From positions 1 to 33,068 of the forward strand of contig JAFRQK010000078.1 in NCBI GenBank assembly GCA_017428635.1: 33,068 nucleotides of DNA, read 5' to 3'. The position numbers were made by a program, and so were the translations under genes. This document shows, one piece after another, positions 20,321 through 29,409 of this stretch. Below the pieces are notes generated by a model. The model worked only from the letters and a program-made list of their open reading frames with translations, was not told the origin of the DNA and searched no databases. Position 1 is the first letter of the stretch. Each line of letters opens with the position of its first letter. This stretch comes from Clostridia bacterium. Its GTDB lineage: Bacteria > Bacillota > Clostridia > Oscillospirales > CAG-272.

Positions 20321-20428
20321 GGAACGCAGAGCGTTCATCCCTGTTCAATACGCGAAGCGGGTTTATATCATTTTGCTTATTTCGGTTACCGCATTTTGTG
20401 CACGCTGTGCCTTCAGCGCAGGGACGGG

Positions 20429-20660
20429 CCTTCCCCTTGAGTGGAAGGTGTCAGCGAAGCTGACGGATGAGGTGAGGACCAAGACACTGTATGCCCAAAA
20501 TTCTGCGCCTTCGGCGCAGGGGGAATCGCTCTCGCTCCCGCGAGCCATTTTTCGCAAAATGCGAAAAATGCCGGTCGCTCGGTCAGGGCGCGGGAAAACA
20601 ATCCCCCGGATTGTTTTCTTACACGCGCCCGTTCGATTCCCCCTTTCAATACGGGCCGAA
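20429..20660 (-). repeat. Post-tRNA composite repeat element, copy A (tRNA-Glu)
   Basis: No gene is visible between the kinase stop (20320) and the tRNA. Reading on the minus strand away from tRNA-Glu, the order is: GGCCCGT matching the tRNA acceptor, ATTGAAA, an inverted T-arm copy GGGGGAATCGAAC (20631-20643), AGAAAACAATCCGG (20606-20619, here one arm of a palindrome), a hairpin with a CATTTTTCGC arm, GCGCCGAAGGCGC, ACAGTG, CTCACCTCATCCGTC (20461-20475) with a GCTTCGC palindrome, and CTCAAGGGGAAGG (20429-20441). Copy B downstream of tRNA-Gln has the same order. Confidence 0.8.
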
Positions 20661-20697
20661 AAGAAGAGCGGGAACGCTGTGCGTTCCCGCTCTTCTT
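20661..20697 (-). terminator. Terminator downstream of tRNA-Glu
   Basis: A perfect 17-bp stem (20661-20677 with 20681-20697) with a 3-base loop begins 3 bases after the tRNA discriminator. A short T-rich stretch follows on the minus strand. Confidence 0.85.
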
Positions 20698-20699
20698 TT

Positions 20700-20771
20700 T
20701 GACCCGTGGGGGAATCGAACCCCCGTTTCCGCCGTGAGAGGGCGGTGTCTTAGCCGCTTGACCAACGGGCC
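20700..20771 (-). tRNA. tRNA-Glu (anticodon CTC)
   Basis: A full cloverleaf on the minus strand: acceptor GGCCCGT with ACGGGTC (one G-U pair), a D arm, anticodon stem CCGCC/GGCGG with loop CTCTCAC giving anticodon CTC (reads GAG), and T arm GGGGG-TTCGATT-CCCCC. The discriminator is A and CCA is not encoded. A consensus promoter lies upstream and a strong hairpin downstream, so it is a single-gene transcript. Confidence 0.95.
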
Positions 20772-28760: not shown

Positions 28761-28831
28761 AGCGGAATTGTGTAACGGTAGCACGACAGACTCTGACTCT
28801 GTTTGTTGGGGTTCGAATCCCTATTCCGCTG
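28761..28831 (+). tRNA. tRNA-Gln (anticodon CTG)
   Basis: A full cloverleaf: acceptor AGCGGAA with TTCCGCT, D arm GTG-TAACGGTAG-CAC, anticodon stem ACAGA/TCTGT with loop CTCTGAC giving anticodon CTG (reads CAG), and T arm TGGGG-TTCGAAT-CCCTA with one G-U pair. The discriminator is G and CCA is not encoded. A terminator hairpin begins immediately after. Confidence 0.95.
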
Positions 28832-28870
28832 AAAAAAGCACGGCGGGCATCAGCCCGGTCGTGCTTTTTT
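28832..28870 (+). terminator. Terminator of tRNA-Gln
   Basis: AAAAAAGCACG (28832-28842) pairs with CGTGCTTTTTT (28860-28870), with an inner CGGGC/GCCCG stem and a small bulge. It ends in six T. Confidence 0.9.
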
Positions 28871-29372
28871 AGCGGAATATTGAAAAGGGATTCGAACCGT
28901 GGCGTGTTAGAAAACAATCCGGTGCGGACAGACTGTCGCTTCCGTATTCGCTCGCCACCGCTGTCCGCCCGAATTTCGCGCAAAAACGCGAAATTCCTGA
29001 AGTTATCACAACACGACACTTCGAGCACCGTAAAATTCCGCGGGTTCGGACAATCCATGTTTTTCGTAAAGTTCTCGTCCCGTCGAAGACGGGTGAAATG
29101 GGTGGGGTCCAATTTCAAGAGAACTTTATCCTGTTCGCGATAGCGAACAGACATTTCACGCGGAATTTTATCCTGCTTGCGAAGCAAGCAGACGATTCCC
29201 TCCGCGCCGAAGGCGCGGCATGCCCATAATACAGTGACTATTTCTCACCTCATCCGTCGCCGTTCGGCGACACCTTGTCTCCCCTGTGGGGTCGGTCAGG
29301 ACGCGGCTCTGACAGCCCGGGGGGCTGTCATTCACTACCGCGTCCCGCGCTCCGCTACCCTCAAGGGGAAGG
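28871..29372 (+). repeat. Post-tRNA composite repeat element, copy B (tRNA-Gln)
   Basis: No gene is supported in the 540 bases from the tRNA terminator to 29409. In order: AGCGGAAT (28871-28878, inverted copy of the tRNA acceptor end), ATTGAAAA, GGGATTCGAACC (28887-28898, inverted T-arm copy), AGAAAACAATCCGG (28909-28922), a GAATTTCGCG hairpin, nested inverted repeats at 29031-29170, GCTTGCGAAGCAAGC, GCGCCGAAGGCGC, ACAGTG, CTCACCTCATCCGTC (29244-29258) with a GTTCGGC palindrome, and CTCAAGGGGAAGG (29360-29372). This is the copy A order with about 270 extra bases. Confidence 0.8.
29031..29170. repeat. Nested inverted repeats inside copy B
   Basis: TAAAATTCCGCG (29031-29042) is repeated inverted at 29159-29170, and TAAAGTTCTC (29067-29076) inverted at 29119-29128. 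GTGAAAT (29093) and ATTTCAC (29153) form a third pair. Copy A has no counterpart, so this looks like an insertion within the element. Confidence 0.7.
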
Positions 29373-29409
29373 CTTTTTTTGCTTAAATCGACGCTTCAAA
29401 ATAATACTT

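Follow-up and report, generated by a model that had tools for sequence, protein, structure and literature searches.

Several tRNA genes of this Clostridia bacterium and of its relatives are followed by a small hairpin unit, which begins with an inverted copy of the local T arm and closes by repeating the tRNA 3' end in direct orientation, and the system appears to work like an integron-like cassette array with the tRNA T arm as its entry site. The observed order is intact tRNA, terminator (together with any cargo), inverted T arm, a unit of two hairpins named P2 and P3, and a direct 3'-end copy that often extends to CCA. Such units belong to the tDNA-integrated elements in the broad sense; by length and integrase they are not Islander-type islands, and with no integrase match among the tested proteins and a deviating site consensus they are not integrons either. 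The reading that we hold to be somewhat better than even is that they are very small cassettes, site-specifically integrated in the T-arm part of tRNA and tmRNA genes, which carry a palindromic site and are served by a trans-acting recombinase.

Two such loci lie in the window, which is the whole analysed stretch of 33,068 nucleotides (contig JAFRQK010000078.1). The first belongs to tRNA-Glu(CTC) on the minus strand (20700..20771), the target with the regenerated 3' part, and all of its parts lie on this strand. Immediately 3' of the tRNA stands an intrinsic-terminator-like hairpin (20658..20699), which has 19 perfect pairs and not the 17 counted in the initial annotation, followed by an inverted acceptor copy (20651..20657), which reads GGCCCGT on the minus strand like the 5' acceptor strand of the tRNA, by a 7-nt linker ATTGAAA at the acceptor/T-stem junction (20644..20650), and by the inverted T arm (20631..20643; minus strand GGGGGAATCGAAC), which is the left arm of a stem named P1. 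Then come hairpin P2 (20586..20630), with the core AAACAATCCGGGGGATTGTTT and a variable outer stem, hairpin P3 (20544..20571) and a direct copy of T loop and T stem, CGATTCCCCC (20519..20528), which is the right arm of P1 and probably a remnant of a displaced tRNA 3' end. The entire unit was delimited to 20520..20644 by covariance model R1 (E 1.2e-27), it being one of the 11 sequences used to build that model. As the initial annotation had claimed, the inverted arm at 20631-20643 (GTTCGATTCCCCC) is reverse-complementary to 20708-20720 at every base, and TTTCAAT (20644-20650) and ACGGGCC (20651-20657) are present, the latter agreeing with the inverted 3' acceptor strand in 6 of 7 bases and with the tRNA's own 5' acceptor strand (GGCCCGT) in all 7. 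The T-arm 13-mer GTTCGATTCCCCC has one further exact site in the 2.27-Mb genome, within tRNA-Glu(TTC) (C38:45-57).

The second locus, that of tRNA-Gln(CTG) on the plus strand (28761..28831), was rightly described as having a layout like that of the Glu locus, with AGCGGAAT-ATTGAAA-AGGGATTCGAACC at 28871-28898. Here a terminator-like hairpin (28832..28870) precedes the inverted acceptor AGCGGAAT (28871..28878), the linker ATTGAAA (28879..28885) and the inverted T arm AGGGATTCGAACC (28886..28898), and a probable decayed right T-arm copy, CGATTCCCT, occurs with one mismatch at 29193..29201, all on the plus strand. The Gln unit is broken up by other palindromic repeats. As well, the intergenic stretches 20339-20560 and 28920-29390, beyond both units, are crowded with palindromic repeats, such as CTCACCTCATCCGTC...GACACCTTCCCCTCAAGGGGAAGG, some of which are inserted into the Gln unit.

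The inverted T arm recurs at other tRNA genes of this genome. Among 40 tRNA genes found, 37 had at least 90 nt downstream and could be tested, the local inverted arm being sought within 120 nt downstream over 12 compared positions. With at most one mismatch it was present at 8 of the 37 (1000 shuffles of the arms gave a mean of 0.92 and a maximum of 4), with at most two mismatches at 9 (shuffled mean 2.79, maximum 6, 1000 shuffles), and a control on the same 37 genes with the downstream sequence reversed gave no copy at all, so that the inverted T-arm copies are confirmed as real and above chance. The nine carriers are Leu(TAG), Gly(CCC), Leu(GAG), Ser(TGA), Glu(CTC), Ser(CGA), Gln(CTG), Ser(GGA) and Val(CAC), and in a tenth case, Leu(CAG), the inverted copy lies 9.65 kb off, beyond an element with a large serine recombinase gene. 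The check proposed with the initial annotation, recurrence at other tRNA genes, thus had a positive outcome, with 8 of 37 in this genome and units in 63 of 196 family genomes. Two outcomes had been set against the reading in advance, of which the lack of the element at other tRNA genes was seen at 28 of 37, where no copy lies within two mismatches and which means that the element is not universal, whereas the match to the local tRNA stood well above that of shuffled arms.

The same was seen in the retrieved loci, where 66 of 154 distinct tRNA and tmRNA genes possess an inverted T arm (shuffled arms: mean 7.0, maximum 13, 200 shuffles), a frequency biased upward by the choice of most loci for holding a unit or hairpin. 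The claim that the inverted piece varies by locus and matches the local tRNA is upheld by this count; when 83 distinct arms were compared, the own arm was strictly best in 39 of the 66 cases, tied in 13 and not best in 14. The inverted copy lies 33-68 nt downstream of the tRNA in 65 of 66 cases. At 83 loci with an inverted arm (at most two mismatches), a right partner was found at 75 and none at 8, and the inverted arm resembled the present tRNA more closely than it did the displaced right copy at 23 of the 75, the right copy more closely at 0 and both equally at 52, although similarity to the tRNA was itself the search criterion and favours such an outcome. This asymmetry is what the cassette model predicts, in which the present 3' end would have come in as one piece with the inverted arm.

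An inverted acceptor was recognised at 22 of the 66 inverted-arm loci (shuffled mean 2.7, maximum 8). At 17 of these 22 it is separated from the T arm by a linker of 5-7 nt with varied sequence and at 5 it is joined directly, and linkers of 1-4 or 8-10 nt never occur; the ATTGAAA of the window is consequently not the fixed spacer for which it had been taken. The acceptor copy and its 5-7 nt linker would probably be a palindrome extension at cassettes directly behind the terminator. Substitutions in the inverted arm were not skewed towards wobble pairs (11 fitted the RNA strand and 15 the other strand, and 36 were transversions), a test of low power because 49 of the 62 changes fall in two acceptor-side positions.

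The tRNA 3' end, whole or in part, appears again beyond the inverted arm and the structured unit, this time as a direct repeat. Most unit loci of this genome close with T loop and T stem repeated in this way, and several with the whole tRNA 3' end. In all retrieved loci, 63 direct right copies were listed, a number which includes a few rows (L225 Met, L146) that are probably other tRNA copies; in 49 the identity covers at least 16 nt and so reaches the CCA where this is encoded, and in 59 of 63 it begins 0-6 nt ahead of the 3' strand of the T stem. At Leu(TAG), 47 bp recur, including the terminator. The sequence after the displaced end is mostly unlike that after the tRNA, with at least 29 nt in common in 8 of 63. 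The absence of direct repeats, which the initial annotation had held against known tRNA-targeting integrases, is therefore not supported, and with their direct 3'-end copies the loci are built like a tDNA-integrated element that has an inverted arm inside. Moreover, direct 3'-end copies of 19 nt identity were observed 152 nt downstream of tRNA-Met (L007) and 262 nt downstream of tRNA-Asn (L009) in this genome, where no good inverted T arm accompanies them; these are possibly older, decayed units.

The piece between the inverted and the direct T arms, which mostly measures 83-146 nt with the arms counted, folds as a three-way junction. P1 is formed by the inverted T arm paired with the direct T arm, P2 is a hairpin with the loop CC-GGK-GG and stems that vary freely with compensation, and P3 is a second hairpin. 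In the window unit P1 has 10 pairs, and the DNA fold scores z -8.4, that is 8.4 standard deviations below shuffles. In 16 aligned units the inverted copy stops at one place (TYGAA), from which related P2/P3 modules follow. In an alignment that was fitted by an RNA model, 629 of 668 cells of the P1 pairs are Watson-Crick, with 15 G.T and 15 A.C, while P2 has 49 G.T against 9 A.C (34 of the G.T at one outer pair) and P3 has 40 G.T against 16 A.C (21 of the G.T at one pair). A DNA palindrome is favoured because folded RNA would favour G.U throughout, whereas P1 does not, so that the pairing pattern suggests a unit acting at the DNA level, with P2 and P3 remaining ambiguous.

The alternative of a role at the RNA level, in which the inverted copy pairs with the precursor tRNA and controls 3' processing, termination or degradation, with the complementarity under selection, would account for the inverted copy tracking the current tRNA and not the displaced copy, for its narrow range of downstream positions, for the excess of inverted acceptors over shuffles and for the G.T excess in P2 and P3, although much of that excess sits at two pairs. 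We consider it unlikely, as G.T and A.C are equal in P1, the changes of the inverted arm lack a wobble bias (with the low power given above), the copy sits beyond a strong hairpin terminator, 28 of 37 tRNA genes of this genome do without it, and direct repeats, arrays and gene cargo are left unexplained.

At E 1e-3, covariance model R1, built from 11 units, had 15 hits in this genome, and 63 of 196 family genomes had hits (15, 17 and 3 in genomes G000, G086 and G173), the units found spanning about 70-180 bp. At phylum level, with E 1e-4 and strict filters, 2 of 398 genomes matched, this one included, from which the R1 subtype seems to be nearly bound to the family. A scan of 11 loci against Rfam gave only tRNA and 6S above the gathering threshold, and the units match no known RNA family; sub-threshold matches to BASRCI153 (26-39 bits against a threshold of 137) overlap tRNA and unit at three loci. 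Phage and plasmid records contained only short partial unit matches, in 6 and 1 records, respectively.

The P2 hairpin was rejected as a specific signature, since among the matches listed it also occurs in Rhodobacterales, Treponema, Algoriphagus and others with no tRNA nearby. The palindrome AAACAGTCCGGKGGACTGTTT (L077, L112, L114, L127, L131 and others) is found in Paracoccus, Rhodobacter, Streptococcus sobrinus, Algoriphagus and Treponema in unrelated contexts, among them TGAGGAGGRTCAG-hairpin pieces that by eye are apparently within transposase genes. Outside the family, the hairpin was also seen behind tRNA-Ser in two records of Burkholderiales (Betaproteobacteria), namely L151 (Curvibacter sp. 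PAE-UM) with an inverted CCA-acceptor copy and L072 (a Burkholderiales MAG) with a displaced 3' end of 16 nt, suggesting that the phenomenon may cross phyla. As well, on the minus strand of L106 (CAMPAT010000115.1, around 2430-2650), a protein gene, which we take to be rubrerythrin-like, has at its 3' end a repeated 195-bp unit containing this type of hairpin; about 40 bp of the gene end are directly duplicated there, no inverted copy was seen by eye, and the same mechanism has perhaps acted on a protein gene.

Many isoacceptors and tmRNA (L232, L262, L268) serve as targets, and chained units occur at 14 candidate loci, the second unit of L045 being doubtful. The longest tandem comprises five units at a tRNA-Ala, and the tmRNA of L232 is followed by four direct copies, the last of which is the intact old 3' end. 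When 34 units in arrays were compared, the inverted arm fitted the start of its own cassette better in 6, the cassette end better in 1 and both equally in 27, and 3 of 20 later units fitted the tRNA better than their own start. Few cassettes carry genes, and most were seen without an ORF; the ORF-bearing cassettes measure 0.66-1.28 kb. At a tRNA-Ser(CGA), a 1.1-kb cassette holds a 306-aa ORF, which has no Pfam match, between two near-identical sites. A cassette at tRNA-Ala(GGC) possesses a 23S_rRNA_IVP-family gene, and one at tRNA-Glu(TTC), the inverted arm of which is not recognisable, possesses a second 23S_rRNA_IVP-family gene together with a GNAT gene, while the cassette with a 157-aa ORF at tRNA-Trp has an incomplete right side.

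Seven loci were compared with same-genus genomes. At Val and Gln, terminators and units are quite different, and at Glu and Gly they are diverged forms of a similar unit with re-paired terminator stems. At Ser(GGA), P2 is a different one while the terminator and flank are kept, and at Ser(CGA), the T stem and the inverted arm changed together beside the same downstream gene, the inverted arm persisting in this genome with the rest of the unit lost. At Leu(GAG), an extra unit of the sister species stands behind the common terminator and inverted acceptor and not in the tRNA T arm, which does not fit a simple insertion into the T arm.

In the favoured cassette reading, an incoming circular cassette would carry its own 3' strand of the T stem, acceptor strand and terminator; its integration would swap the tRNA 3' end as a block and push the old one downstream. 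The inverted T arm would be the inner arm of a palindromic recombination site belonging to the cassette, and it would follow the local tRNA because its pairing partner in the circle would be the T-arm half that later lies in the tRNA. The site may be active as folded or cruciform DNA, by a logic akin to that of the integron attC, with the tRNA as attI. The recombinase would act in trans and might be the core Xer, or an integrase that is encoded elsewhere or was lost. The cassette circle is proposed from sequence, no pair of empty and occupied strains having been seen, and no recombinase was found inside an array, the nearby Xer of a few genomes being a core gene.

Displaced 3' fragments are likewise found in Islander-type islands (PMC4383910), and the units could be what internal deletions left of ordinary integrase-bearing islands at the T loop, the inverted arm being an old attP arm. 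To this reading, too, we give little credence, for one unit type recurs at many tRNAs in one genome, with 15 model matches, and is present in 63 of 196 genomes, and intact tandem units, as well as a cargo cassette bounded by whole units, are unexpected from random deletion. Still less probable is a mutational origin, in which fold-back synthesis at the terminator hairpin copied acceptor and T arm in inverted orientation and slippage gave the tandems. The uninterrupted inverted acceptor and T arm at 5 of 66 loci and a long palindrome through the terminator at L173 are in its favour, but it does not explain the uniform end of the copy (TYGAA) leading into related P2/P3 modules, the linker confined to 5-7 nt at 17 of 66 loci, or the mostly different sequences after tRNA and displaced end.

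As regards the recombinase, four tyrosine recombinase matches were found in this genome, and a tblastn search with these four against the retrieved loci, which distant integrases could escape, found no integrase within units; it did give an Xer match next to the L206 array and, weakly, a hit in L324, both outside units. An orphan tyrosine recombinase of 286 aa was rejected as the mover, being present in 17 of 63 unit genomes versus 62 of 196 overall (Fisher p 0.41). An Xer-like protein of about 350 aa is the only tyrosine recombinase found in all of the unit-bearing G000, G086 and G173, and in G173 (86% complete) it is the only one found; it is also present in G023 and G130, where no unit was found. 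In G000, G173 and G201 its gene is 2.8-3.1 kb away from a tRNA that has an inverted arm, a synteny that is apparently shared, and in G100 of another genus it is 1.1 kb from a unit-bearing tRNA-Leu(GAG); six further same-genus stretches around the gene had no tRNA within reach. Against the integron integrase model TIGR02249, the tyrosine recombinases of this genome scored at most 86.8 bits (cut-off 265), and the 196 family genomes gave no match, but as 14 control genomes gave none either, this negative does not establish absence from the family.

A non-autonomous element moved by a RAYT/Y1 transposase or by the large serine recombinase (LSR) encoded directly before several units is very improbable, for although the array of L068 has a Y1_Tnp-like gene behind it (19.7 bits, cut-off 23) and LSR genes end directly before units at L051 and L319, by coordinates in G078 and by a look at reading frames only in L150 and L185, Y1_Tnp (PF01797) has no match at E 1e-5 in the unit-bearing G000, G086 and G173 with their 15, 17 and 3 units, G086 and G173 have no LSR match at E 1e-100, and seven joints of tRNA or tmRNA with LSR lie at the CCA end with no unit there. 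These joints come from 40 retrieved stretches, 39 with LSR and 7 also with a tRNA or tmRNA upstream in the right orientation, and they indicate that the LSR marks a separate element. Members of this LSR family lie at the distal end of elements situated at tRNA or tmRNA genes (L322, L324, L325, L337, L346, L348, L361; L051:11950-13419); a displaced ...CCA is seen where the LSR match stops, and the reading frame apparently continues into it. According to an earlier report, only tyrosine recombinases were known to target tDNAs (PMC4383910), and these LSR elements may merit separate study.

Among known systems, integron cassettes also end in an imperfect-palindromic, foldable site with pairing arms, carry small ORFs and form an array behind a fixed entry, and an array of cassettes with foldable palindromic ends, some with ORFs, was found here as well. 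In contrast to integrons, the units enter at the tRNA T arm and form a three-way junction and not a single hairpin with R and L boxes. The attC consensus comprises R'' RYYYAAC and R' GTTRRRY together with the L boxes, and the unit right ends (GAGAC-CGAAT, GAGAA-CAAGT, etc.) depart from it, mostly lacking GTT. REP/RAYT and MITE-type repeats are short, dispersed, palindromic and mostly non-coding, in all of which the units resemble them; unlike these, the unit ends copy the target tRNA, and Y1 transposase was unmatched in the three unit-bearing genomes.

tDNA islands consist of a regenerated tDNA upstream and a displaced 3' tDNA fragment in the same orientation (PMC4383910), and an intact tDNA with such a fragment downstream was found here. 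Islander-type islands share with the units the regenerated tDNA, the displaced 3' fragment, the T-arm target, tmRNA targets and tandems, whereas they measure at least 2 kb and carry an integrase and the units usually measure 0.1-0.2 kb with no integrase found; both units and ORF cassettes fall below the 2-kb minimum of the length filter. What further distinguishes them from these islands is the conserved hairpin structure with its inverted T arm. Tycheposons are tRNA-anchored cargo elements likewise, of 4-200 kbp and with a tyrosine recombinase, while the units here are tiny and none was found in them (PMC10872708). No description of such units was found in the literature covered, which included subscription journals in part.

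The length and integrase filters of island finders would discard such units by design. A wider possibility, which we put forward tentatively as clearly less probable than the cassette reading itself, is a second integron-like system, in which tRNA and tmRNA genes are fixed entry sites, three-way-junction DNA with the cognate inverted T arm forms the cassette sites, incoming cassettes resupply the 3' end and terminator, and Clostridia collect small genes behind many tRNAs by means of a trans recombinase, possibly the core Xer. If true, this would widen the range of gene-capture platforms, account both for duplicated tRNA 3' ends and for contigs that break at tRNA genes, and make the recombinase using the T-arm palindrome a clear target. 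Even if the units are mini-islands only, the joint changes of tRNA, inverted arm and terminator record repeated 3'-end replacement in a form that can be measured; if the cassette reading is true, the tRNA genes of a mostly uncultured family of Clostridia would host cassette arrays.
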